From: an uncultured Carboxylicivirga sp.
GTDB lineage: Bacteria > Bacteroidota > Bacteroidia > Bacteroidales > Marinilabiliaceae
Direction of reading: 5' to 3'
Assembly: GCF_963668385.1 (NCBI RefSeq)
Contig: NZ_OY764327.1
Coordinates: forward strand, 5,584,724 to 5,648,723
Length of the DNA: 64,000 nucleotides
The notes beneath the pieces were generated by a model. The model ran no database searches and had not been told where the DNA came from. It saw only the letters and a list, made by a program, of their open reading frames with translations. The position numbers and the translations under genes were made by a program. Shown here in pieces: positions 45,888 through 58,786 of the stretch; the first letter of the stretch is position 1, and each line of letters begins with the position of its first letter.

Positions 45888-45892
45888 TTAGT

Positions 45893-45908
45893 TTAACCAT
45901 TTGGTTAA
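45893..45908. promoter_or_regulatory. TetR operator 1 (TTAACC-N4-GGTTAA)
   Basis: TTAACCATTTGGTTAA is a perfect 6-4-6 palindrome lying 5 bp upstream of the tetR start codon and downstream of its minus-7 element. Binding here would block transcription. Confidence 0.75.
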
Positions 45909-45916
45909 TTATGCCC

Positions 45917-45948
45917 CAAAACTAAATTAATCATTTGGATTAACCAAA
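45917..45948 (-). promoter_or_regulatory. Predicted promoter of the tetR export operon
   Basis: On the minus strand, TTTG (45948-45945), 20 nt, then TAGTTTTG (45924-45917). Both elements are exact. The TTTG lies inside operator 2. Confidence 0.7.
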
Positions 45949-45955
45949 CGGTTAA
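45940..45955. promoter_or_regulatory. TetR operator 2 (TTAACC-N4-GGTTAA)
   Basis: TTAACCAAACGGTTAA repeats the same arms, 47 bp from operator 1. An overlapping weaker dyad TTAATC-N5-GATTAA spans 45927-45943. It covers the tetR minus-33 element and lies upstream of the divergent carboxylase promoter. Confidence 0.75.
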
Positions 45956-45984
45956 CGCCATTTTATTATTTCAAATAGTTATCA

Positions 45985-46085: not shown

Positions 46086-47681
46086 ATGTTTCAGTTAAGA
46101 AGTGAAATAAACAACAACGAAGAGTTTCAATATAATCAGAAAACAAACCTACAACTCGTACAAGAGTACTGGGGAAAATATAATATTGTAAGCAAAGGTG
46201 GCGGCGAAAAAGCGTTACAAAAACATACTGAAAGAGGTAAATTACCTCCTCGCAAACGAATAGAATTGCTATTGGATAAAGACTCTCCTTTTCTTGAGTT
46301 ATCGCCTTTAGCAGCCAACGGGCAATATAAAGATTCATTTCCATCAGCAGGAATCATAACCGGCATTGGAAAGGTGCATGGGCTCGATGTGATGATTGTA
46401 GCGAATGACGCTACTGTTAAAGGCGGCACCTATATTGCCGAAACCATTAAGAAACATTTACGGGCCCAGGAAATAGCTGAGCAAAACGATTTACCCTGTA
46501 TCTATTTGGTTGATAGTGGTGGAATTTTCCTTCCTGAACAAGCGAATGTATTTGCTGATAAAAATGATTTTGGACGCATTTTTTACAATCAATCCCGCAT
46601 GTCGGCAAAAGGTATTTCGCAAATTGCCATTGTGATGGGATCGTGTACTGCAGGTGGAGCTTATGTTCCGGCCATGAGCGACGAAACAATCATTGTAAAA
46701 GATCAGGGTACAATTTTCTTGGCAGGCCCTCCACTGGTTAAAGCTGCAACTGGCGAAGAGGTGACAGCAGAAGAGCTTGGTGGAGGCTACGTACACACGC
46801 ATATATCGGGTGTTGCCGATCATTTGGCCGATGACGATATACATGCTTTACACATTTGCCGTAACATAATTGAATCGTTACCCGAAAAAAAACAGCATCA
46901 AAAAGAATTTAAAAGTCCACTATATTCATCCGAAGATTTATACGGACTCATTCCTACTGATGGTATGCCTTTTCCGGATATTAAGGAAATTATTGCCCGA
47001 TTAACAGACAATAGCGAGTTTCACGAATTTAAAAAGGATTACGGTTCAACGCTTGTTACAGGCTTTGGTGAAATTCATGGTCAAAAAGTTGGTATTTTGG
47101 CTAATAACGGAATCCTATTCTCCGAATCGGCACAAAAAGGTACTCATTTTATTCAGCTATGCAACGAGAGAGAAATACCCATGCTTTTTCTTCAAAACAT
47201 TACCGGTTTTATGGTTGGTAAAGAATATGAGCACAAGGGAATTGCAAAAGATGGAGCTAAAATGGTGAACGCCTTGGCTAACTCAAAAATGCCCTATTTC
47301 ACATTTATCATTGGGGGCTCTTATGGTGCCGGAAATTATGCTATGGCAGGCAGAGCCTATGAGCCTCGGTTTTTATTTATGTGGCCCAACGCCCGCATTT
47401 CGGTTATGGGAGCAAAACAAGCGGCTGAGGTTTTAATAACCATAAAGAGAGATCAGGCTAAAGCGCTAAAGCAAGAAATTGATGAATCGGAACTTGAGGT
47501 AATTCGCGAACAGATTGTAAAAAAATACGAGGAAGAAGGATCACCTTATTACAGCACCAGTCGTCTTTGGGACGATGGGATCATCGATCCCGCAACCAGT
47601 AGAGAAGTTGCAGCCCGGGTGTTGCAAATAATTTCAAAACCAAACAAAGAAAAAACGGGATATGGAGTATTTAGAATGTAA
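46086..47681 (+). CDS. mccB: 3-methylcrotonyl-CoA carboxylase, carboxyltransferase (beta) subunit
   Basis: A 531-residue carboxyltransferase, the usual MCC-beta length. It opens with the MCC-type N-terminus ([32 protein letters not shown]). The acyl-CoA half has [16 protein letters not shown] near 185-200 and the biotin half has [18 protein letters not shown] near 409. It carboxylates 3-methylcrotonyl-CoA to 3-methylglutaconyl-CoA with the biotin subunit encoded two genes on. Geranyl- or propionyl-CoA specificity is possible but less likely given the hydratase neighbour. It is the first gene of a nine-gene operon and overlaps the next gene by 20 bp. Confidence 0.88.
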
Positions 47682-48480
47682 AACATATCAAACTATAGAA
47701 GTCGCTCACAACAATGAGATTAGTTGGATTACATTAAATAATCCGACTAAAAAAAATGCATTATCAAAACTGATGATTATTGAGTTGATTAATGAATTAA
47801 AACACATTATTGATAATGACGAACAAAGAGTTGTTGTGATAAAAGGTGCTAATGAAATGTTTTGCTCCGGTGCTGATCTGGATTGGATGCGTATAGGTAT
47901 TAAACAAAATATACAAGAAAACATTGAAGATGCCAACCTGTTCTTCCGTTTATATTCAACACTGTATTATTATCCGAAGCCAGTTATTGTTTGGGCTGAA
48001 AAATTTGCCTTTGGTGGAGCCACTGGACTGTTAGCTTGCGCTGATTATTCGCTTGCTGATAAAAACTGTCTATTTGGATTCCCTGAAGTTAAATTAGGAT
48101 TAGTTCCGGGTACAATCGCGCCTTTTATCGTTAAAAAACTAGGCTTTAATCAAAGTAAAGCTCTAATGTTAAGTGGCGAAACTTTTACCGCTAAAAAAGC
48201 AAAGAAAATTGGTTTAATCAATGAGGTTGTGAAGACTGAAAAATCTCACGAACGCATCTTTGCATTAGCTCAGCAATTTAAACGAAACAGTCCCGAAGCA
48301 ATAACATCAACCAAACACCTATTGAATCGGATTGTCGATAATGGAGAACTCAACGGTGAGTTAATCGACTTGTGTTGTAGAACCATTGCCTCTGCCCGTA
48401 TATCAAATGATGGCCAGGAAGGCGTTAATGCCTTTTTCGAAAAAAGAAAACCCAATTGGATTAAAGAAGCAGAAGAATGA
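47662..48480 (+). CDS. liuC: Enoyl-CoA hydratase, probably methylglutaconyl-CoA hydratase
   Basis: A 272-residue crotonase-fold protein. The oxyanion-hole segment [10 protein letters not shown] lies near 68-77. [16 protein letters not shown] and [11 protein letters not shown] near 139-150 carry a catalytic Glu. Sandwiched between the two methylcrotonyl-CoA carboxylase subunits, it should hydrate 3-methylglutaconyl-CoA to HMG-CoA, as LiuC does in Pseudomonas. Sequence alone would allow other enoyl-CoA substrates. It overlaps both neighbours (20 bp and 4 bp), so stoichiometric co-translation is likely. Confidence 0.83.
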
Positions 48481-50423
48481 AGAGAGGGAATAAAATTAGA
48501 AAGGTATTAATTCCGAACAGGGGGGAAATTGCTGTACGAATCATCAAAGCAGCTCATGATTTAGGGATAAAAACGGTTGTAACTTTATCTGAATTGGAGA
48601 AAGACACAATCCCCGCTAAATTGAGTGATGAAGTCCATTTTTTCAACGACTTATCTTTAGCTTCCACCTATTTAAATATTCCTTTAATTGTTGATATAGC
48701 TCAACAATACGGAGCTGATAGTATTCACCCGGGCTACGGTTTTCTGGCCGAAAATCACCAACTGGTGCTAGCTTGCGAAGAAGTCGGAATCACCTTCATT
48801 GGCCCATCGGCAGATAATTTGTTGCAAATGGGCGATAAACAAACGGCTCGTAACATTGCCCGTCAATGCAAAGTACCTGTTACCCCATCGTGGGAAGGAT
48901 CGGTTGATGAAATATTACAACAAGCCTCATCAATGGACTTTCCGGTATTAATTAAAGCAGCATTGGGCGGTGGTGGAAAAGGAATGGTAATTTGTAATGA
49001 TGAACAATCACTGCAACTTCAGTTACCTGCCGTGGCTCGTCAGGCACTTAGCTTTTTTGGTGACGATCGGGTGTATGTTGAAAAATACATTGCTTCGCCT
49101 CGTCATATAGAAGTTCAGGTTCTAGCTGACGATTTTGGTAACACACTCCATCTTTTCGAGCGGGAATGTTCCATTCAACGTCGTTTTCAAAAAATTATTG
49201 AAGAAGCTCCGGCCGCCAACCTTTCTGATCAAAAGAGAAATGAGCTATGCTCCGATGCAATTAATTTGTGCAAACAAATTGCTTACAAAAGTGCCGGCAC
49301 AATAGAATTCCTTTTAGATGATGATGGAAAGCATTACTTTTTGGAGATGAATACCCGCATTCAGGTAGAGCATTGTGTAACGGAAGAAATAACACATATC
49401 GACCTGGTAAAGTGGCAATTTAAAATTGCGAACGAAGAGGAATTAGACTTCTCTCAAAATGATATTCAGAGAATGGGGCATGCTATACAGGCTCGCATTT
49501 ACGCTGAAGATCCGGAATCTGATTTTACTCCATCTCCGGGCACTATCAATCACTTGAACGTACCCGATAACCATGGTTTAAGAATAGAGATGGCATTCGA
49601 CGCACCAGATGAGATACATCCTCAGTTTGATCCTATGATTGCCAAATTCATTGTTCATCAGCCTAACAGAGAAAAAGCAATTAAAAAACTATCAGCACAT
49701 CTTGCGGATACTTCATTCAGGGGCATCAAAACGAATCTTTCTTACCTTCAGAATATTTTAAATCACAAACTGTTTAAAGAAGGTAAAATTCATACACATT
49801 TTTGCCAGACAGAAAGAGAATTGCTGCTGGCAAAAAATAAACTTATTACAGAACAAGCAATCATTGCCTATGCTCTGATCAGGTTTAAACCCGATCACTC
49901 ATTAAAAGGCTTTTGGCGCTTGTATCCAAGCATTGATTTTACTTATAACAATGCAGTTTTTAATGCCTCGTATCGTAAAGGAATTAATCAAATTCATTTA
50001 ATAATCAATGGTAATGAATATACAATATCGAAAATTCAATTAACTGATTATACCATTGAATTCGAATACAAAAATCAAATTATAAAAGCCTGGTATTTTG
50101 ATGATCACCAAACCTATTCGATCATCATTAATAATCAGGAACACAATATCGAGGCTCAGGACTTACTACCTGAATATCAGCAAAAAGAAGAAACGAGTAA
50201 TAACCTAAACGGTTCGACACTGCATTCACCACTACCCGGACAAGTGGCTAAAATACTGGTAAAAGAGGGACAGGAAGTTAAAGCAGGAGATGTATTAGTC
50301 ATTTTAGAAGCCATGAAAATGGAAAACCGCCTTAGTGCATGGAAAGACTCAATGATTGAACAAATTCATGTTTCAAGTGGCGATCAGGTAAAATCGAACC
50401 AACTATTAATCACAACAAACTAA
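48477..50423 (+). CDS. mccA: 3-methylcrotonyl-CoA carboxylase, biotin carboxylase/biotin carrier (alpha) subunit
   Basis: A 648-residue two-part protein. The biotin carboxylase has ATP-grasp motifs (VLIPNRGEIAVRI, HPGYGFLAEN, AALGGGGKGM near 160, ECSIQRRFQK, EMNTRIQVEH). A linker domain leads to a C-terminal biotinyl domain with EAMKMEN (biotinylated Lys near 613). Length and layout match MccA/LiuD. Propionyl-CoA carboxylase alpha looks similar, so the assignment leans on the beta subunit and hydratase beside it. The start overlaps the hydratase stop by 4 bp. Confidence 0.9.
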   Translation: MKRGNKIRKVLIPNRGEIAVRIIKAAHDLGIKTVVTLSELEKDTIPAKLSDEVHFFNDLSLASTYLNIPLIVDIAQQYGADSIHPGYGFLAENHQLVLACEEVGITFIGPSADNLLQMGDKQTARNIARQCKVPVTPSWEGSVDEILQQASSMDFPVLIKAALGGGGKGMVICNDEQSLQLQLPAVARQALSFFGDDRVYVEKYIASPRHIEVQVLADDFGNTLHLFERECSIQRRFQKIIEEAPAANLSDQKRNELCSDAINLCKQIAYKSAGTIEFLLDDDGKHYFLEMNTRIQVEHCVTEEITHIDLVKWQFKIANEEELDFSQNDIQRMGHAIQARIYAEDPESDFTPSPGTINHLNVPDNHGLRIEMAFDAPDEIHPQFDPMIAKFIVHQPNREKAIKKLSAHLADTSFRGIKTNLSYLQNILNHKLFKEGKIHTHFCQTERELLLAKNKLITEQAIIAYALIRFKPDHSLKGFWRLYPSIDFTYNNAVFNASYRKGINQIHLIINGNEYTISKIQLTDYTIEFEYKNQIIKAWYFDDHQTYSIIINNQEHNIEAQDLLPEYQQKEETSNNLNGSTLHSPLPGQVAKILVKEGQEVKAGDVLVILEAMKMENRLSAWKDSMIEQIHVSSGDQVKSNQLLITTN

Positions 50424-50424
50424 C

Positions 50425-51576
50425 ATGTCAGTATTAACAAACGAACAACACGAAGCTTTTCGCAAGGAAGTAAGAGCTTTTGCCGAAAAAGAAATTAAAC
50501 CAGTTGCCGCTCAACTCGACGAGGAAGAATCATTCTCGGTTGAGCTAACAAAAAAAATGGGCCAGGCAGGTCTTTTCGGAATCGATATTCCTAAAAAATA
50601 TGGCGGACGAGAATTGGATACGCTTTCATACATCATCGCCGTTGAAGAGATTGCACGTATCGATGGATCGCAAGGAGCAACTATGGCAGCTCATAATAGT
50701 TTAGGAATAGCTCCCATTTTTAATTTCGGCACAGAGGATCAACGTCAGAAATATTTACCAGAACTTACCAATGGCGAAGGTTTATGGGCATTTGGCCTTA
50801 CCGAAGTGATGGCCGGATCAGATGCTAAAGGAGTACAAACCATTGCCGAAGAAAAAGAAGATTATTGGTTGGTAAATGGTACTAAACGATACATAACCAA
50901 TGGAAGTAACGAGCTATTGAAAGGCATGACAGTGCTTGCATTAACGGATGAAGAAAATGGCAAAAAACGTTATTCTACTCTTTTGGTTGATAGAGCTTCG
51001 GAAGGATTTCAGACTCACAGTATGAAAGGCAAAATGATGTGGCGAGCATCTGATACTGCCCAAATCAAGATGAACAATGTAAAAGCACCAAAAAATAGCC
51101 TATTAGGAGAAAAGAACAGAGGCTTAGGACAGATGCTCAAGACTTTGGATTCAGGCCGATTATCCATTGCAGCAATGGGATTAGGTTTAGCGCAGGGTGC
51201 TTTTGAAATGGCGATGAATTATGCTCAAAAACGCGAACAATTTGGCAAAAAGATTGGTTCTTTTCAGGTAACACAATTTAAATTAGCCGATATGGCTCTG
51301 AAAATTGAGTTGGCCCGAAACACTCTTTACAATGCCTGTGTTTTAAAAGATAGTGGTTTGCCTTTTGGAAAAGAAGCAGCCATGTCGAAACTATATTGCA
51401 GCGAAGTAGCCAAAGAAGTTTCTGACGAAGCCGTACAGATATTCTCAGGTCAAGGTTTATTCAAATCTTCAGCCATCGAGCGCTTTTATCGCGATCAACG
51501 AATTTTACAAATTGGCGAAGGAACATCAGAAATACTGCGCATTGTAATCAGTAAGCATTTGGGATTGGAAGAATAA
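50425..51576 (+). CDS. Acyl-CoA dehydrogenase, predicted to act on isovaleryl-CoA
   Basis: A 383-residue FAD flavoprotein of the acyl-CoA dehydrogenase family (FGLTEVMAGSD; REQFGKKIGSFQ; FSGQG; YRDQRILQIGEGTSEI). Context points to isovaleryl-CoA oxidation, the step just before carboxylation. However, the catalytic base is Glu365 in IGEGTSE, the position used by short- and medium-chain enzymes, while authentic isovaleryl-CoA dehydrogenases have Gly or Ala there and a Glu in the helix where this protein reads SGRL. It may therefore be a broad short or branched-chain dehydrogenase recruited to the pathway. It starts 1 bp after mccA. Confidence 0.85.
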   Translation: MSVLTNEQHEAFRKEVRAFAEKEIKPVAAQLDEEESFSVELTKKMGQAGLFGIDIPKKYGGRELDTLSYIIAVEEIARIDGSQGATMAAHNSLGIAPIFNFGTEDQRQKYLPELTNGEGLWAFGLTEVMAGSDAKGVQTIAEEKEDYWLVNGTKRYITNGSNELLKGMTVLALTDEENGKKRYSTLLVDRASEGFQTHSMKGKMMWRASDTAQIKMNNVKAPKNSLLGEKNRGLGQMLKTLDSGRLSIAAMGLGLAQGAFEMAMNYAQKREQFGKKIGSFQVTQFKLADMALKIELARNTLYNACVLKDSGLPFGKEAAMSKLYCSEVAKEVSDEAVQIFSGQGLFKSSAIERFYRDQRILQIGEGTSEILRIVISKHLGLEE

Positions 51577-51610
51577 GCCGTAAATTTGCTATATCGAAAC
51601 ACACATTAAT

Positions 51611-52606
51611 ATGGAAGACCGCAAAAAAGATCACATAGACTTAGCATTTAGTTCGCGCCTTGACAGCAAACTGGTTGATAATCGGTTTGATTATGAACCT
51701 ATGCTGGGCACTCATAGCAAAAATGATTTAAGCGTTGATTTTGCGGGTAAGCAAATGAAGCTACCTATTTGGGTTTCGAGTATGACTGGCGGAACAAAGC
51801 GAGCCGGCACCATCAATAAAAACCTGGCTCAGGCTTGTGCCGAATTTGGCTTGGGCATGGGGCTTGGTTCGTGCAGAATTCTGCTTGACTCACCTGAGTA
51901 TTTCGACGATTTTAACGTTCGTCCTATTATGGGAAACGAAGTTCCACTTTTTGCCAATATTGGTATTTGTCAGTTGGAACAAATGCTGGAAAAAGGTACC
52001 GAGCATCAAATCGATGAACTGGTTCATAAGCTGCAAGCCGATGGACTGGCAGTTCACGTAAATCCAATGCAGGAAGCTTTTCAGCCCGAAGGTGATTTAT
52101 TGAAGACCTCTCCCATCAAGATTTTAAAAAAATATCTGGATAAAACTGATCTCAAAATAATAGTAAAAGAGGTTGGTCAAGGCTTTGGTAAAGAAAGTTT
52201 GCGACAATTGCTTTCTCTTCCATTAGAGGCAATTGAATTTGGAGCATTGGGTGGAACTAACTTCTCCTTAGTGGAGCTAAACCGCTCCGAGTCAATGGCA
52301 GCTGAAGTATACAATCCATTTATTCATATTGGACATACGGCCGATGAAATGACCCAAATGGTTAACCAATTGGTTGATAAAATGGGGTACAAAGTAAAAG
52401 TCAACAACATCATTATTTCAGGAGGAATTTCCTCTATTCTGGATGGTTATTACCTAACCGAAATTTCGAAAATGCCAGCCATTTTTGGAATGGGTTCTGC
52501 TTTTCTTCGCCACTCAATGGGCAGTTACGAAAAACTACAAAACTACGTTCAGAAATTAGCTGATGGACTACAGTTGGCCAATAACTTTTTACGAGTAAAA
52601 CAATAA
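51611..52606 (+). CDS. fni: Type 2 isopentenyl-diphosphate delta-isomerase
   Basis: A 331-residue FMN-dependent TIM barrel with family marks RKKDHIDLAF, SSMTGGT near 57-62, HVNPMQE at 149-155 and GGISSILDG. It interconverts IPP and DMAPP using reduced FMN. It sits 34 bp after the acyl-CoA dehydrogenase gene and 1 bp before HMG-CoA reductase. This gene marks the switch from acyl-CoA chemistry to isoprenoid chemistry inside the same operon. Confidence 0.93.
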   Translation: MEDRKKDHIDLAFSSRLDSKLVDNRFDYEPMLGTHSKNDLSVDFAGKQMKLPIWVSSMTGGTKRAGTINKNLAQACAEFGLGMGLGSCRILLDSPEYFDDFNVRPIMGNEVPLFANIGICQLEQMLEKGTEHQIDELVHKLQADGLAVHVNPMQEAFQPEGDLLKTSPIKILKKYLDKTDLKIIVKEVGQGFGKESLRQLLSLPLEAIEFGALGGTNFSLVELNRSESMAAEVYNPFIHIGHTADEMTQMVNQLVDKMGYKVKVNNIIISGGISSILDGYYLTEISKMPAIFGMGSAFLRHSMGSYEKLQNYVQKLADGLQLANNFLRVKQ

Positions 52607-52607
52607 T

Positions 52608-53924
52608 ATGCAAGATAATCTGATCATCAAAGGCTTTTCGAAATTAAACCGGGAAGAAAAAATAGAGTTAATTACTGAGAAGTATGGGCTTTCAGTTCAG
52701 GTTCAATCCAACCTGAATCGTTATTTACACCCTACCGATCAATCTTTATTTAATGACATTTCAGAGAATGTCATCTCTAATTATTATTTACCTTTTAGTT
52801 TGGCTCCTAACTTCCTGATCAACGATCGGATGTACGTTATACCAATGGTTATCGAAGAGAGTTCGGTGGTAGCTGCAGCATCCAAATCAGCTTCATTTTG
52901 GGCTAAGAATGGAGGCTTTAAAACAAAGGTGATTAATAATCAGAAGAATGGTCAGATTTTTTTTAAATGGAATGGCTCAGCTTCTCTCCTGCAAAAATTC
53001 AATAGCGAAATTACTTCATTGATCGATGAAAGCACTAATGACATAACTGCAAACATGCAGGCTCGTGGTGGTGGAATTACCGGTTTTGAAATCAAATCGA
53101 TTGAAAACATGGAAAATACACATCAGTTGCTAGTTCATTTTGATACTGTAAACTCCATGGGTGCGAATTTCATCAACACATGCCTCGAAAAGATTTCAAT
53201 GCCATTTATCGATTTTATTAATAATCAAAGCGAATTGCAGTCTTTTGGAAAGTCCGAGCATATCATGTCTATTTTAAGTAATTATACGCCCGAGTGCCTG
53301 GTCGAGTGCACTATATCTTGTAATATCGAAGATTTGGCGGCTTATTCAGCCACGTACTCGCCCAAAGAATTTGCTCAGCGTTTTAAAACAGCAGTTGACA
53401 TTGCTATTAACGATCCATACAGAGCAGTTACTCATAACAAAGGTATTTTCAATGGGATTGATGCAGTAATACTGGCCACAGGAAACGATTTCAGGGCCGT
53501 TGAAGCCGGAGCACAGGCTTATGCTTCTCAATCGGGTCAATACCGTTCGTTAACTTCATGTGAAATAAGTGACGATCATTTCTCCTACACTTTAAAAGTG
53601 CCATTGGCAATAGGAACGGTTGGAGGATTAACCCAGCTTCACCCGATGGTTAAAACTGCTTTCGAGATATTGAATAATCCCAATGCAGATGAACTAATGC
53701 AAATAGTTGCAGCCGCCGGAATGGCTAATAACTTCAGCGCTGTTGCGGCATTGGTTACAACAGGCATTCAAAAAGGACACATGAAATTACATCTTGGCAA
53801 TATTCTCACAACACTTAATGCATCTGACAATGAAAAAAGAAATGCTACAAAATATTTCAAAGATAAAACAGTGAGTTATGCAAATGTTCAAACCTATTTA
53901 GAAGAAAGCAGACAAAAGGTATGA
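52608..53924 (+). CDS. mvaA: Hydroxymethylglutaryl-CoA reductase, class II
   Basis: A 438-residue class II HMG-CoA reductase. ENVISNYYLPF has catalytic-type Glu53 and MVIEESSVVAAAS has Glu83/84. A cofactor segment NSMGANFINTCLE follows, and NKGIFNGIDAVILATGNDFRA (about 272-295) carries the catalytic Lys and Asp. GHMKLH near 391 provides the general acid. Class II enzymes work in either direction depending on the organism. Mevalonate kinase and decarboxylase genes downstream argue for the biosynthetic direction here. It starts 1 bp after fni and overlaps the following kinase gene by 4 bp. Confidence 0.92.
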   Translation: MQDNLIIKGFSKLNREEKIELITEKYGLSVQVQSNLNRYLHPTDQSLFNDISENVISNYYLPFSLAPNFLINDRMYVIPMVIEESSVVAAASKSASFWAKNGGFKTKVINNQKNGQIFFKWNGSASLLQKFNSEITSLIDESTNDITANMQARGGGITGFEIKSIENMENTHQLLVHFDTVNSMGANFINTCLEKISMPFIDFINNQSELQSFGKSEHIMSILSNYTPECLVECTISCNIEDLAAYSATYSPKEFAQRFKTAVDIAINDPYRAVTHNKGIFNGIDAVILATGNDFRAVEAGAQAYASQSGQYRSLTSCEISDDHFSYTLKVPLAIGTVGGLTQLHPMVKTAFEILNNPNADELMQIVAAAGMANNFSAVAALVTTGIQKGHMKLHLGNILTTLNASDNEKRNATKYFKDKTVSYANVQTYLEESRQKV

Positions 53925-54850
53925 ACAAAACCGTAACGCAGAAATTTCATGCCAACGGTAAATTACTAATTACCGCCGAATATTTGGTTCTAAAAGGAGC
54001 CAAAGCATTGGCTGTACCTTTAATCCAAGGTCAGAGCTTAACTATCTCTCCAGCTAATGAGTTTACATGGGAAGCGTATACACCAAAGGATATATGGTTT
54101 AAAACCAGTTTTGATCATCTTCTAAATATAACTCATAGTAATAGTACATCAGAAGCAGAGAAATTAAAGAATATTCTGCATAAAGCAGTACAAATTAAAC
54201 CCTCATTAGTAAATGAATTAAAGGAGAAGAGAGTTATTACCCATCTTGAATTCAATAAAGACTGGGGCTGGGGAAGCAGCTCAACCTTAATTGCTCTTCT
54301 TTCAAAATGGCTTGATGTTAATCCTTATGAATTATTGACAAATACTTTTGGAGGATCCGGTTACGATATTGCTTGCGCCATAAAAAACTATCCAATTATT
54401 TATCAAACTATTGACGATAAAAACATTGTTCAAAAATCAACCTTCAATCCGGCTTTTAAAGATCATATTTACTTTGTTTACAGCGGCAAAAAACAAACAA
54501 GTAGCAATGAAGTAAAACGCTTTTTAAAAGAAGGTAAAATAAGTAATGATGTTATTCAATCGATAAACCATATCACCAACGAAATGTCTTTATGTAATAA
54601 TATAAATGACTTTGGAAGATTAATGCATTTGCATGAAGATATTATCGGAAAATGCGTTCAACAAATGCCAATAAAAACTAAACATTTTAAAGATTTTAAA
54701 GGTTATATAAAGAGTTTGGGTGCCTGGGGCGGCGATTTCTTTATGGTTGTAACAGAGCATGATGATAATTACATCGACCATTACTTTCGAAGCAAAGGAT
54801 TGAAAACTTTTTTCAAATACAATGACATCGTATTAAATAGTAACAATTAA
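53921..54850 (+). CDS. GYDIA-type GHMP kinase, candidate phosphomevalonate kinase
   Basis: A 309-residue GHMP-fold protein with an N-terminal HANGKLLITAEYLVL and a P-loop-like GWGSSSTL at 116-123. The defining GSGYDIA is at 145-151. The family is named for that motif and has no settled function. The operon supplies mevalonate kinase and diphosphomevalonate decarboxylase separately, so the missing phosphomevalonate kinase step is the natural assignment. This is inference from context. It overlaps HMG-CoA reductase by 4 bp and the decarboxylase by 1 bp. Confidence 0.85.
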   Translation: MNKTVTQKFHANGKLLITAEYLVLKGAKALAVPLIQGQSLTISPANEFTWEAYTPKDIWFKTSFDHLLNITHSNSTSEAEKLKNILHKAVQIKPSLVNELKEKRVITHLEFNKDWGWGSSSTLIALLSKWLDVNPYELLTNTFGGSGYDIACAIKNYPIIYQTIDDKNIVQKSTFNPAFKDHIYFVYSGKKQTSSNEVKRFLKEGKISNDVIQSINHITNEMSLCNNINDFGRLMHLHEDIIGKCVQQMPIKTKHFKDFKGYIKSLGAWGGDFFMVVTEHDDNYIDHYFRSKGLKTFFKYNDIVLNSNN

Positions 54851-55878
54851 TGAATCAAACTATTACAACATATCAAGAAGCACCTACCAACATAGCTATT
54901 GTAAAATATTGGGGTAAAAAAGGCATACAGGAACCGATGAATCCGAGTTTAAGTTTTACTTTAAAAAAATCTATTACAAAAACCAATGTTACCTACGAGG
55001 TTACAGATCATGAGTTATCCATTGATTTTTTGTTCGAAGGAAAGCAAAAAGAAAGCTTTATTCCTAAACTCACTCAGTTTATTAAGAATATCATTCATCT
55101 TTTACCCTATTTACAGTCCGGTAAATTATTGATTGAAAGCGAGAATACATTTCCTCATTCGAGTGGTATAGCATCATCAGCCAGTTCGATGGCTACATTG
55201 GCAAAATCGTTGGTTGATATTAGTGAGAAAATGGGTAATGTCCACTCCAACAAAGAATATCTGATTTCTGAAATTGCCCGTTTAGGATCTGGTAGCGCCT
55301 GTCGTTCAACTCAAAACGGATGGATAGAATGGGGAACAAGTAAAATATTTGACCAATCGTCTAACAAATATGGTATTTCAGTAAATCAAATTATTCACAA
55401 AAACTTCACTGAATTACATGACAGTATTTTAGTTATCCGAAAAGGAGCTAAAGCAGTTAGCAGTACAGTTGGGCATTCTTTAATGAATAATCACCCATAT
55501 CAACAAGGCAGAATAGATCAGGCAAATCAGAATCTGTCAAAACTTCAAACAGCTCTTCAAACAGGTGATTTTTCACTATTTGCAGAAGTTTGCGAAGAAG
55601 AAGCTCTAAGCATACATGGATTAATGATGAGTTCTTCCCCAGGCTATACCTTAATGGCACCCGAATCGTTAAAAGCAATTGAATTAATTAAACAATTCAG
55701 GAAAGATCACGATATACCTCTAACCTACACATTAGATGCCGGACCAAATATTCATATTATTTATCCTAAAGAGCATAAAGAAAAAGTATTACCCTTTATT
55801 CAAAAAGAGCTGAGCACGCTTTGTGAGGATCATACCGTTATATACGACGAAATATCAATGCATACAAATTCATTATAA
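54850..55878 (+). CDS. mvaD: Diphosphomevalonate decarboxylase
   Basis: A 342-residue GHMP-fold enzyme opening EAPTNIAIVKYWGKKG, the decarboxylase signature. NPSLSFTL follows, then the phosphate loop PHSSGIASSASSMATL (102-116), GSGSACRS near 147 and LDAGPNIH late in the chain, which carries the catalytic Asp. It converts mevalonate diphosphate to IPP with ATP. Neighbouring genes provide the steps before and after. It starts on the stop of the kinase and abuts mevalonate kinase, so all three kinases/decarboxylase are translationally linked. Confidence 0.93.
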   Translation: MNQTITTYQEAPTNIAIVKYWGKKGIQEPMNPSLSFTLKKSITKTNVTYEVTDHELSIDFLFEGKQKESFIPKLTQFIKNIIHLLPYLQSGKLLIESENTFPHSSGIASSASSMATLAKSLVDISEKMGNVHSNKEYLISEIARLGSGSACRSTQNGWIEWGTSKIFDQSSNKYGISVNQIIHKNFTELHDSILVIRKGAKAVSSTVGHSLMNNHPYQQGRIDQANQNLSKLQTALQTGDFSLFAEVCEEEALSIHGLMMSSSPGYTLMAPESLKAIELIKQFRKDHDIPLTYTLDAGPNIHIIYPKEHKEKVLPFIQKELSTLCEDHTVIYDEISMHTNSL

Positions 55879-56858
55879 TGGGCATAAAAAAGGAGAAAAA
55901 AGAGATCTATTATTCTAAAATAATGCTGTTTGGAGAGTATAGCATTATACTTGGTTCGATGGGATTAACTATTCCGTATGCCCATTTCAATGGTGAACTT
56001 AAATTCATCAACAAAACCAGTTATACAGATTTGAACTTTGCACAAAACTCTAATCAACAAATAAGAGAACTTAATGAGTATATTTCTGATTTAAAACAAA
56101 CAAATCAGCTGCTTCACGATTTTGATTGCGAACGATTAAACAAAGACCTTAGTAAAGGCTTGTATTTCGAGTCAAGTATTCCCGAAGGATACGGATTAGG
56201 GAGCAGTGGCGCATTGGTAGCTGCTTTGTATAACGAATATACTTTAGACCGGATTGAATCGCGTGCGGGTATTCAAATGGATGAAATGTTAGAGTTAAAA
56301 AAGAATTTTGCTCAAATTGAATCCTTTTATCACGGTACTAGCTCTGGCATCGACCCTTTAATCTGTTATTTAAAGCATCCTCTGGTATTACAAAATAAAC
56401 AACAGATTTCGTCGGTTGGAATTCCACGAAAAGATATTTTGGTTGATGATGCTATTTTTTTAATTAATAGTGGTAAACCGGGAAAGACAGCTCCTTTGGT
56501 AAAGCTATTTATGGATAAGGTAAAAGATTCAAATTACTTAAAAGCCATAGAAGAAAAAATGATTCCACTTACAAATTTTTGTATAGAGAGTATGCTAATC
56601 GGAGATTTAAATGGGATGTTTAACACACTAAAAGATCTATCTGCCTTTCAATTAAGATTCTTACCAGAAATGATTCCGGATACCATTAAACCCATATGGG
56701 AACATGGGCTAAGCAGCCAGAATTTCACGCTCAAATTATGCGGATCAGGTGGTGGAGGTTTTGTTCTGGGTTTTACACGAAACTATTCAGAAACAAAGGA
56801 TTTTTTTAAGAAACTAGAAATGGAAATGATACCTGTTTATCGAGAGATGATAAAATAA
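55878..56858 (+). CDS. mvk: Mevalonate kinase
   Basis: A 326-residue GHMP kinase. KIMLFGEYSIILGS is the first motif, PEGYGLGSSGALVAAL (102-116) the P-loop, and HGTSSGIDPLICY carries the catalytic Asp. LCGSGGGGFVLGF is the third motif. The SIVH motif of typical mevalonate kinases is not exact, and homologues of this type are common in Bacteroidota. It phosphorylates mevalonate to 5-phosphomevalonate. It is the last gene of the operon, and a strong terminator follows. Confidence 0.88.
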   Translation: MGIKKEKKEIYYSKIMLFGEYSIILGSMGLTIPYAHFNGELKFINKTSYTDLNFAQNSNQQIRELNEYISDLKQTNQLLHDFDCERLNKDLSKGLYFESSIPEGYGLGSSGALVAALYNEYTLDRIESRAGIQMDEMLELKKNFAQIESFYHGTSSGIDPLICYLKHPLVLQNKQQISSVGIPRKDILVDDAIFLINSGKPGKTAPLVKLFMDKVKDSNYLKAIEEKMIPLTNFCIESMLIGDLNGMFNTLKDLSAFQLRFLPEMIPDTIKPIWEHGLSSQNFTLKLCGSGGGGFVLGFTRNYSETKDFFKKLEMEMIPVYREMIK

Positions 56859-56880: not shown

Positions 56881-56914
56881 AATTCCCTCGCTTAAAAAAC
56901 GAGGGAATTTTTTC
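56881..56914 (+). terminator. Rho-independent terminator of the leucine/mevalonate operon
   Basis: Perfect arms AATTCCCTCG (56881-56890) and CGAGGGAATT (56900-56909), with a T-tract after. It lies 23 bp past the mevalonate kinase stop. Confidence 0.9.
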
Positions 56915-57034
56915 ATAGATATAGGAGGTTATACATGGTATCTAAACTTTTTCTAACGTTTAACAAACGTAGTAATAATTGAGTGAGAATTACTCAACAT
57001 TTCGAATTGTTTGATAAACAGGTTAAAATTTTAC

Positions 57035-57385
57035 TTAAATAGCACTCCCGCCACGTTCTCCTGTGCGAATACGAATACACTCTTCGAGATTGGTTATAAA
57101 GATTTTTCCATCTCCAATTTCTCCTTCAATTTCACTTTCGGAGCGGGCTGCGTCAATAATTGCATTTACTGCCGTATCAACAAACTGTTCATTTACTGCA
57201 ATTTCAACACGCATTTTAGGTATTAAACCAGGAATTACTTTTTTACCACGATAAACTTCTTCCTGTAATTGTGCTCCATGACCAGAAACACGACTCACTG
57301 TTATACGGGTAATACCGGCTGCAATCAAACTTTCGCGAACCTGATCTAATTGGTATGATCTTATAATAGCTGTAATTAATTTCAT
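57035..57385 (-). CDS. glnK: PII nitrogen-regulatory protein (GlnB/GlnK type) without the T-loop Tyr
   Basis: A 116-residue PII protein. MKLITAIIRSYQLDQVRESL matches the first strand and helix, and IGDGKIFITNLEECIRIRTGERG covers the C-terminal ATP/2-oxoglutarate loop. In the T-loop, E. coli has RGAEY with uridylylated Tyr51; here RGKKV puts Val at that place, so uridylylation is not possible there. The B-loop side has a four-residue insert (SESEIEGE). It lies 40 bp downstream of the ammonium-transporter gene and presumably blocks that channel in response to 2-oxoglutarate and ATP. Confidence 0.92.
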   Translation of the reverse strand: MKLITAIIRSYQLDQVRESLIAAGITRITVSRVSGHGAQLQEEVYRGKKVIPGLIPKMRVEIAVNEQFVDTAVNAIIDAARSESEIEGEIGDGKIFITNLEECIRIRTGERGGSAI

Positions 57386-57425
57386 CGTTACTTGTTTTAA
57401 AAATAAAAAATGTCTGTAATCATTT

Positions 57426-58754
57426 CTAGTTTGGATTCAACATACCGTAACCACGTTCGCCATGGAAAGTATGATCCAATCCCTGCATTTCTTCTTCAGG
57501 TGTTGTTTTTAATCCAAATAGTTTTTCTATTACAACTAATATAATTATTGTAAGAACAACGGCGTATACAATTGCGATAGCCACGGCTGCAACCTGTACA
57601 CCTAATTGTTGCCACACAGTCCAGACTCCACCTACTTTTTCAGCAGCATCAGCCATCCAGCTATCTCTGATAAAGAAAGTTAAAGCAACTGCACCAACAA
57701 TTCCTCCTACCCCATGAATACCAAATGCATCCAATGAATCGTCGTAACCTAACTTATCTTTTACAATCAACATATAATAACAGATTACGGTTGCAATAGC
57801 TCCTAAAGCCATTGCTCCGGCGGGTTGAACCACTCCGGCAGCTGGCGTTACAGCAACCAATCCTGATAAAATCCCGGAAGCAAAACCTAACGCTGTCATT
57901 TTGCCCTGATGAAATCCTTCAATAATAATCCAGGTTATAGCACCAGCTGCTGCTGCTACTTGGGTTGCTGTTAATGCCTGAGCTGTTGCCAATCCACTTG
58001 AAATACTACTTCCGGCATTAAAACCAAACCAGCCAACCCATAAAAGACCAGCTCCCATCATTGTCATAACAAGATTATTAGGTTTCATCTGGCGTTGAGG
58101 GTAACCTCTACGTGCACCTAAATAGATAGCTGCCACTAATCCACTAACTCCAGCAGATATATGAACTACCGTACCTCCAGCAAAATCAATCGCACCATCA
58201 GCTCCCATATTAAATAAGAAGCCATCTTCAGCCCACACCCAGTGACAAAGAGGATTATACACTAAAAGCCCCCAAACTGTAATGAAAATTAAATATCCTC
58301 TGAACTTTACCCGTTCAGCAAATGCACCAGCAATTAAGGCAGGTGTAATAATGGCAAATTTTCCCTGAAACATTGAAAATACATATTCAGGAACTCCCCC
58401 ATCTATAACACTTTGGTCGATACCTCTTAAGAACACATAATCTGAATTCCAACCAAACCATCCACCTAAAACATTCTCGCCAAAACACATACTATAACTA
58501 ACTGCTACCCAAAGCACACTCATAACACCCATAGCAGCAAAACTATGCATCATTGTTCCCAATACATTTTTGGAGCGTACCAATCCACCATAAAACATGG
58601 CCAAACCTGGGATCATTAGCAATACCAGTGCAGTTGATGTCAACATCCAAGCAGTGGCACCTGTATCGACATTCGGTTGTGCCTGAGTGCTCATAAGCCC
58701 CCCAGCACCTAATAACAGACTTAAAGTCAGTAGGATTTTTCTTTTACTCTTCAT
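57426..58754 (-). CDS. amt: Ammonium transporter (Amt family)
   Basis: From the ATG at 58754 the protein has 442 residues with a signal-like leader (ending near 26, TQA) and about 11 helices. TAWMLTSTALVLLMIPGLAMFYGGLVRSKN and GLVRSKN-type motifs are at the start, the pore-lining HWVW near 168 and GIHGVGGIVGA near 350. An earlier in-frame ATG at 58784 lies at the predicted transcription start, so the later ATG is preferred. It imports ammonium, controlled by the PII protein encoded next. Confidence 0.93.
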   Translation of the reverse strand: MKSKRKILLTLSLLLGAGGLMSTQAQPNVDTGATAWMLTSTALVLLMIPGLAMFYGGLVRSKNVLGTMMHSFAAMGVMSVLWVAVSYSMCFGENVLGGWFGWNSDYVFLRGIDQSVIDGGVPEYVFSMFQGKFAIITPALIAGAFAERVKFRGYLIFITVWGLLVYNPLCHWVWAEDGFLFNMGADGAIDFAGGTVVHISAGVSGLVAAIYLGARRGYPQRQMKPNNLVMTMMGAGLLWVGWFGFNAGSSISSGLATAQALTATQVAAAAGAITWIIIEGFHQGKMTALGFASGILSGLVAVTPAAGVVQPAGAMALGAIATVICYYMLIVKDKLGYDDSLDAFGIHGVGGIVGAVALTFFIRDSWMADAAEKVGGVWTVWQQLGVQVAAVAIAIVYAVVLTIIILVVIEKLFGLKTTPEEEMQGLDHTFHGERGYGMLNPN

Positions 58755-58786
58755 TTGTTTATGACATTTATCAGTTTTTCTCATCG

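Follow-up and report, generated by a model that had tools for sequence, protein, structure and literature searches.

A conserved gene cluster joining methylcrotonyl-CoA carboxylase to the mevalonate pathway in Carboxylicivirga, and its probable role as a leucine shunt into isoprenoids

The DNA analysed in this study, a 64,000-nucleotide stretch of an uncultured Carboxylicivirga sp. (the window), carries a gene cluster in which a putative leucine catabolic module is joined to the mevalonate pathway. Nine open reading frames (ORFs) lie on the plus strand at positions 46086-56858, with coordinates and strand verified, and the successive intergenic distances are -20, -4, +1, +34, +1, -4, -1, and -1 bp. 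The original prediction, made from the sequence alone, had described nine tightly spaced genes with overlaps and gaps of at most 34 bp, and the ORF coordinates bear this out. The window's own genome (G000) is one contig of 6.27 Mb, with a listed completeness of 100% and contamination of 1.46%. Gene names were checked against NCBIfam, Pfam, and PDB sequences; G numbers refer to genomes surveyed, and L numbers to loci of 3-hydroxy-3-methylglutaryl-CoA (HMG-CoA) reductase (HMGR).

The cluster opens with mccB (46086..47681; 531 aa), which encodes the beta subunit (carboxyltransferase) of methylcrotonyl-CoA carboxylase (MCC) and matches PF01039 with 494 bits. Among PDB sequences, it scored 667 bits with the MCC beta subunit of P. 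aeruginosa and 665 with a mitochondrial one, versus 434 with geranyl-CoA carboxylase and at most 256 with most chains called propionyl-CoA carboxylase. A geranyl-CoA carboxylase, or acyclic-terpene catabolism, was rejected on these scores. The second gene (47662..48480; 272 aa; PF00378) encodes a methylglutaconyl-CoA hydratase-like crotonase, named from its context; its best NCBIfam match is gamma-carboxygeranoyl-CoA hydratase, with 198 bits against a cut-off of 426, and a score so far under the AtuE cut-off also counts against acyclic-terpene catabolism. The third gene, mccA (48477..50423; 648 aa), combines Pfam biotin carboxylase and biotinyl domains, with an EAMKM motif at residue 611. NCBIfam gives no model above cut-off for this protein, and its MCC role is assigned because mccA adjoins mccB. 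The fourth gene (50425..51576; 383 aa) encodes an acyl-CoA dehydrogenase whose presumed substrate is isovaleryl-CoA. By type it is a butyryl/short-chain enzyme, in which Glu365 falls within an EGTSEI motif, and the segment LDSGRLS occupies what we take to be the place of the catalytic base in isovaleryl-CoA dehydrogenase (IVD). It is one of two relatives in G000 at E<=1e-20; the other, a protein of 578 aa with 33% identity along a portion of the sequence, adjoins a gene resembling those of electron-transfer flavoprotein (ETF).

The mevalonate half begins with idi2 (51611..52606; 331 aa), a type 2 isopentenyl-diphosphate isomerase (IDI2) named from PDB comparison and from TIGR02151 (201 bits; cut-off 281). 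It is followed by HMGR (52608..53924; 438 aa), of the class II/degradative-type family, with 250 bits to TIGR00532 (cut-off 260) and 293 bits to PF00368. This protein aligns along its length with PDB 7n7s (431 bits) and contains E83, K278, D294, and H391, all of which we take to have catalytic roles. The last two genes are mvaD (54850..55878; 342 aa), a diphosphomevalonate decarboxylase that passes the TIGR01240 cut-off (193 against 171 bits) and is backed by PDB comparison, and a mevalonate kinase-like GHMP kinase (55878..56858; 326 aa), with 70 bits to TIGR00549 (cut-off 163) and likewise compared with PDB sequences.

Between HMGR and mvaD lies a GYDIA-family GHMP kinase (53921..54850; 309 aa), a presumed phosphomevalonate kinase, with 346 bits to NF040656, above the cut-off of 225. 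The Pfam scan left this kinase and IDI2 without a match, and no relative of the kinase was found among PDB sequences. Its predicted structure (pLDDT 92.4) has mevalonate and phosphomevalonate kinases among its best fold matches, followed closely by galactokinases and heptokinases, which belong to the same superfamily. These matches are consistent with a phosphomevalonate kinase but are no proof of one, and the step was assigned by elimination. The best 80 of 588 confirmed relatives from an HMGR scan of genome contigs were taken as loci; in 66 of these 80, from Bacteroidota and Bdellovibrionota, a GYDIA-family kinase stands directly downstream of HMGR. It is likely that GYDIA-family kinases next to HMGR represent a missing phosphomevalonate kinase. 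A literature search with the family name gave no relevant paper. The absence of phosphomevalonate kinase from Flavobacteriaceae, and its possible replacement by another GHMP kinase, has already been noted in an excerpt of PMC4026382.

The cluster thus holds the families expected for the conversion of isovaleryl-CoA to HMG-CoA (the dehydrogenase, both MCC subunits, and the hydratase, with presumed substrates), together with HMGR and the full lower mevalonate pathway; the names HMGR, IDI2, and mevalonate kinase come from best matches that fall under the respective cut-offs. NCBIfam, Pfam, and PDB agree with the gene names first proposed, except that the dehydrogenase is of the butyryl/short-chain type and that several best matches stay below curated cut-offs; those exceeded belong to diphosphomevalonate decarboxylase and the GYDIA kinase.

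A comparison of gene order in related genomes, suggested with the original prediction, found the complete nine-gene order in 13 of the 80 HMGR loci (L046, L047, L048, L050-L054, L056-L059, and L123), with protein identities of 33-84%. These loci come from Carboxylicivirga, N1Y90, Saccharicrinis, SZUA-609, Thermophagus, UBA5488, AS08, Breznakibacter, Marinilabilia rubra, and Tangfeifania, and three Marinilabilia loci (L053, L054, and L056) also hold the order. The cluster lacks a gene or is interrupted by a contig end in L049, L055, L072, L074, L079, and L115. Chance adjacency is rejected by this recurrence, and the cluster is a real, conserved gene arrangement. HMGR was also found in 36 of 60 genomes drawn from the window's family, including all nine of its genus (its own included). 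The dehydrogenase gene immediately precedes idi2 in 25 of the 30 loci shown from that draw; in the other five, it is absent or outside the stretch examined. Some of these family loci are the genomes of named loci (L187, for example, is L046), and hence are not independent. In an HMGR tree that omits L053 and L075 (a stop within the translated stretch), the MCC-linked loci are clustered but do not form one clade, with 6 changes against 14.7 in shuffles; the pattern fits an old linkage with losses.

The absence of HMG-CoA synthase (HMGS) and HMG-CoA lyase, first noticed for the operon, extends to the complete genome and to 15 relatives with MCC beside HMGR. No HMGS was found in G000 with PF08540, PF01154, or a Bacteroidota HMGS profile (A1). 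The two Pfam models (PF08540, PF01154) were positive in 4 and 7 of 14 control genomes; profile A1 comprises nine HMGS-like proteins of the phylum, and the three of the nine that were scanned have HMGS models as their best NCBIfam matches, below cut-off. For the lyase, model NF004283, positive in 5 of 14 control genomes, gives no match in G000 at E<=1e-40. The wider family PF00682 has four members only in G000. Three of them best match LeuA, NifV-type homocitrate synthase, and CimA, and the fourth, a 637-aa protein, is OadA/pyruvate-carboxylase-B-like, as judged by length and sequence; a lyase hidden among these four was rejected on that account. Because neither synthase nor lyase was found, HMGR is the only recognised exit for HMG-CoA, and leucine is its only recognised source.

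The same question was put to 80 genomes, many of them metagenome-assembled genomes (MAGs): the 42 HMGR-positive members of a 198-genome draw from the phylum, together with those in which 38 of the 80 named loci lie. The survey omitted 42 loci, including L057, L049, L055, and L072, which carry the whole or partial cluster, and the PF01154 search covered the 42 phylum-draw genomes only. Members of the lyase family (E<=1e-40) were found in 52 of the 80 genomes, and 12 of the 52 pass the curated cut-off. None of the 16 genomes with MCC beside HMGR (G000 and the 15 relatives) has one, versus 52 of the 64 others (Fisher p 1e-9, relatedness ignored). HMGS was found in 15 of the 80 genomes, in 10/42 of the phylum draw, and in 0/16 of those with MCC beside HMGR. 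Neither protein was found in Alkalitalea (G216) and Plebeiobacterium (G220), which have high-identity MCC; in G220, HMGR sits at a contig end. MCC beta matches at 1e-100 occur in 73 of the 80 genomes, and their identity to the window protein is bimodal: 60-81% in the 15 relatives, G216, G220, G222, G232, and four Bacteriovoracaceae-like genomes, and 45-50% in the remaining matched genomes.

The cluster is best read as a hard-wired leucine shunt into isoprenoids that operates beside the methylerythritol phosphate (MEP) pathway, a reading to which we give a probability of about 0.75 and in which we infer the substrates of MCC, the dehydrogenase, the hydratase, and the GYDIA kinase, as well as direction, co-transcription, and physiological benefit. 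Leucine or its keto acid would be converted to isovaleryl-CoA by an aminotransferase and a branched-chain oxoacid dehydrogenase (BCKDH) encoded outside the cluster; three fused two-subunit oxoacid dehydrogenases elsewhere in the genome are BCKDH candidates, and an ETF-like gene also lies elsewhere. The acyl-CoA dehydrogenase would then form 3-methylcrotonyl-CoA, MCC would carboxylate it to 3-methylglutaconyl-CoA, and the hydratase would yield HMG-CoA for reduction to mevalonate by HMGR. Mevalonate kinase, the GYDIA kinase (as phosphomevalonate kinase), and diphosphomevalonate decarboxylase would lead on to isopentenyl diphosphate (IPP), which IDI2 would convert to dimethylallyl diphosphate. 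By established chemistry, MCC places its carboxyl on the gamma methyl group of 3-methylcrotonyl-CoA, the thioester end is what HMGR reduces, and the decarboxylase takes off the free carboxyl. The carboxyl fixed by MCC would thus be the one lost at the decarboxylase, and therefore the isovaleryl C5 skeleton of leucine would become IPP intact; uniformly labelled leucine is predicted to give M+5 isoprene units. The two two-electron oxidations by the oxoacid and acyl-CoA dehydrogenases would offset the two reductions by HMGR, and the route would spend one ATP in the MCC reaction and three further ATP on the lower mevalonate steps. Since no lyase is recognised, HMG-CoA would not leave as acetoacetate, and since no synthase is recognised, it would not be supplied from acetyl-CoA.

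Three MEP genes were found in G000: dxr, ispG, and dxs (752 bits). DXR, searched with PF02670 alone, a model that would miss DXR-II enzymes (PMC3847144), occurs in 38 of the 80 surveyed genomes, including all 16 with MCC beside HMGR; IspG was found in G000 and 13 of the 15 relatives, and not in two MAGs. The ispG of G000 (C1:953455-955218) encodes 634 aa, and an insert splits its GcpE match in two, as in many relatives. Given the MEP genes of the operon genomes, leucine would provide a second supply of IPP, which would plausibly be useful when leucine is abundant or when oxygen impairs the iron-sulphur enzymes of the MEP pathway.

Several findings weigh against the leucine shunt. The MEP genes make it dispensable in principle. 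The dehydrogenase is nearest to butyryl/short-chain enzymes, with 334 bits versus 216-231 for isovaleryl-CoA dehydrogenases among PDB sequences, and its sequence, on these scores and with Glu365 in EGTSEI, is not that of a classical IVD. Among PDB chains, 9tps (673.5 bits) matches MCC beta best and bears the label propionyl-CoA carboxylase beta, and 4q0g, labelled AccD1, ties with it; since the two top chains carry such labels, the MCC name rests on clade and context. The hydratase, MCC alpha, IDI2, HMGR, and mevalonate kinase all stay under NCBIfam cut-offs. The BCKDH candidates are best named pyruvate dehydrogenase E1, below cut-off, and no dedicated BCKDH could be assigned. HMGS is absent from 32 of the 42 HMGR-positive phylum-draw genomes, most of which are without the operon, and its absence is hardly operon-specific (0/16 versus 15/64, p 0.03). 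The proposal that leucine carbon passes through HMG-CoA into the mevalonate pathway therefore gains from the genome-wide failure to find mvaS and lyase genes, and loses from the coexisting MEP genes, the common absence of HMGS, and a candidate internal promoter.

The main rival is an unrecognised, non-homologous HMGS that feeds the mevalonate block from acetyl-CoA, the MCC genes only adding to or balancing HMG-CoA; it is the main rival because so many of the phylum's HMGR-positive genomes are without HMGS. Fifteen of the 32 HMGS-less genomes are also without DXR, and the complete genomes G057 and G088, two of the 15, have HMGR, no HMGS, and no MCC match at 1e-100. Since HMGS, DXR, and, in these two, an MCC match are lacking, another maker of HMG-CoA is needed there, and G057 and G088 hint that an unrecognised source of HMG-CoA exists in the phylum. 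However, both carry a lyase-family protein that was not found in G000, so their solution need not hold for G000. In three flavobacterial HMGR loci, no synthase candidate stood out from the ORF listing, inspected by eye only. In G000 and its relatives, moreover, MCC and HMGR genes are physically linked, which argues against this rival, and we regard it as unlikely. Reverse operation of the first half, from mevalonate or HMG-CoA to isovaleryl-CoA for iso-branched lipids as in myxobacteria, had been raised with the original prediction. The class of this HMGR has an NCBIfam model named degradative, and the dehydrogenase has similarity both to butyryl-CoA dehydrogenases and to the model for acryloyl-CoA reductase, as would suit such a direction. 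Yet no HMGS is recognised that would make the HMG-CoA, and the kinases, decarboxylase, and IDI2 in the same gene run point to IPP. The myxobacterial reverse route uses AibA/B and AibC, whereas the cluster has MCC in their stead, and the keto acid of leucine gives isovaleryl-CoA in one step. With leucine as the only recognised HMG-CoA source in a genome without HMGS, reverse flow is disfavoured and very unlikely.

The cluster could also consist of two adjacent, separately expressed and unlinked modules, one for leucine or isovalerate catabolism and the other a mevalonate block running on imported mevalonate. A candidate internal promoter of the Bacteroidota type (TTTG-N19-TAnnTTTG; 51558..51588, plus strand), 22 bp before idi2, would suit this arrangement, as would the IDI2-to-MvaK blocks without adjoining MCC in L061-L063, L073, L076, and L078. 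The promoter could uncouple the two halves, a further point against the shunt. The consensus, which we take to be that of Bacteroidota promoters, has 4 matches in the window versus 3.9 expected, a chance level. The site before idi2 recurs at the same place in L046 (=L187), L047, and L186, with an exact match in 4 of 40 loci tested, and a TATTTTTA variant was seen by eye at this position in six further loci of the genus (L188-L193). Since the window-wide count is at chance level, the site is supported by its position and conservation only, and the mevalonate half may have its own start besides read-through. Against two unlinked modules, the leucine half alone would dead-end at HMG-CoA without a recognised lyase, and the joined order is kept in the 13 nine-gene loci down to low identity; such a split is very improbable. 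Of the two kinds of feature that were to count against the single operon first proposed, terminator-like sites in this region are at chance level (9 versus 8.1 expected), and an internal promoter has the candidate before idi2. Sigma-70-type sites are below chance (33 versus 39.9 expected).

A stronger form of the leucine shunt would make isoprenoids the obligatory end of leucine breakdown, with the mevalonate pathway rewired for leucine-derived HMG-CoA alone; leucine might also be the only supply of essential isoprenoids for the four Bacteriovoracaceae-like drafts and for 13 of 15 phylum-draw genomes with neither recognisable DXR nor HMGS, but with MCC. This extension is tentative, and we would sooner doubt than accept it. 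The 15 (G029, G037, G053, G057, G064, G088, G103, G107, G118, G130, G134, G154, G158, G162, and G182) are among 25 phylum-draw genomes that are HMGR-positive and DXR-less. An MCC-beta-like protein (46-49% identity) is present in 13 of them; all 15 have a divergent HMG-CoA lyase-family protein of about 157-202 bits (cut-off 246), and IspG was not found in any of the six tested. The four Bacteriovoracaceae-like drafts (G214, G215, G221, and G226, with loci L061, L062, L073, and L082) are all MAGs; they contain an IDI2-HMGR-GYDIA-MvaD-MvaK block plus a separate MCC cluster with a lyase. HMGS, DXR, and IspG gave no match in these draft MAGs, and leucine may be their only isoprenoid route.

The surroundings of the cluster were also inspected. 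A probable intrinsic terminator lies directly 3' of the last gene (56881..56917, plus strand): a hairpin, whose 13-pair stem was listed for the opposite strand, followed by a T run on the plus strand. Upstream, the interval between a divergent tetR and mccB holds a pair of palindrome-like TTAACC/GGTTAA elements, and the Bacteroidota promoter consensus is matched there on the minus strand (45888-45960). The elements are probably operators of the TetR-efflux operon, possibly overlapping with mccB control. Among 14 loci searched, a TetR gene adjoins mccB in L046 and L047, lies farther away in L051, L053, L054, and L056, and was not found in the remaining eight. Given this patchy distribution, control of the cluster by TetR is not claimed, and TetR looks like part of the efflux operon. 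Downstream, glnB and amtB (57035-58784) follow the cluster; of 14 loci searched in relatives, 8 have the two genes in that position. Elsewhere in the genome, at L002 (G000:C1:4379354-4380121), the NifV-type homocitrate synthase gene follows an ORF that by eye looks like nifB; the organism may fix nitrogen.

In liu leucine-degradation clusters, the genes of MCC, hydratase, dehydrogenase, and HMG-CoA lyase stand together. The Carboxylicivirga cluster likewise unites MCC alpha and beta, a hydratase, and an acyl-CoA dehydrogenase; unlike the liu layout, it has the mevalonate block where the lyase would be. The four Bacteriovoracaceae-like genomes of the survey retain a lyase about 3 kb from MCC beta. 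Leucine-to-isoprenoid flow itself is already known. Excerpts of the sources describe a 'leucine shunt' in Halobacterium salinarum and Leishmania mexicana (PMC8791446) and direct flow in Trypanosoma brucei (PMC5993337), where five steps lead from leucine to HMG-CoA and on into the mevalonate pathway, bypassing acetyl-CoA, as proposed here. In the myxobacteria Myxococcus and Vitiosangium, dimethylacrylate label enters a sesquiterpene and acetate label does not do so significantly; 3-methylcrotonyl-CoA feeds isoprenoids there, similar to the present proposal (PMC7321100, in part). The precedent named with the original prediction, trypanosomatids, thus holds for T. brucei and Leishmania and is joined by Halobacterium and myxobacteria (PMC8791446, PMC7321100, in the same excerpts). 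The present case differs from T. brucei, for which the excerpt reports both HMGS and a putative HMG-CoA lyase (PMC5993337), neither of them found genome-wide in G000. It differs from the Halobacterium and trypanosomatid shunt in having its genes gathered in a single cluster and MEP genes in the same genome. Myxobacteria additionally have an alternative isovaleryl-CoA biosynthesis, and no joined MCC-mevalonate operon appears for them in the excerpt (PMC7321100). The joined cluster without recognised synthase or lyase is therefore best read as a variant. No description of a joined MCC-mevalonate operon in Bacteroidota was found in the openly licensed literature, subscription papers being mostly outside the search, in line with the expectation that this coupling is little described.

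G000 also resembles dual-route bacteria such as Streptomyces, Listeria, and Mycobacterium marinum in that a single genome carries genes for both routes to IPP, a combination put at 2.42% of species in an excerpt of PMC13001223, which also describes Legionella species without HmgS. In M. marinum, as far as the excerpt goes, MEP is essential and mevalonate dispensable (PMC12632256). The mevalonate route of those dual-route bacteria starts from acetyl-CoA via HmgS, whereas the only recognised start in G000 is HMG-CoA derived from isovaleryl-CoA.

In sum, this study found a conserved cluster that probably joins leucine catabolism to isoprenoid formation. The nine-gene cassette may be offered for isoprenoid production from leucine; a review states, in the part available, that to its authors' knowledge the leucine shunt has not yet been built in E. 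coli (PMC8791446). If the reading is true, it would correct annotations that label such mevalonate pathways incomplete, and would explain a working mevalonate pathway in at least some HMGR-positive genomes of the phylum that lack HMGS. A bacterial mevalonate pathway could then be hard-wired to an amino acid, with no acetyl-CoA start required, and isoprenoids would be the end point of leucine catabolism, so that quinones and the carrier lipids of the cell wall would be tied to leucine supply.

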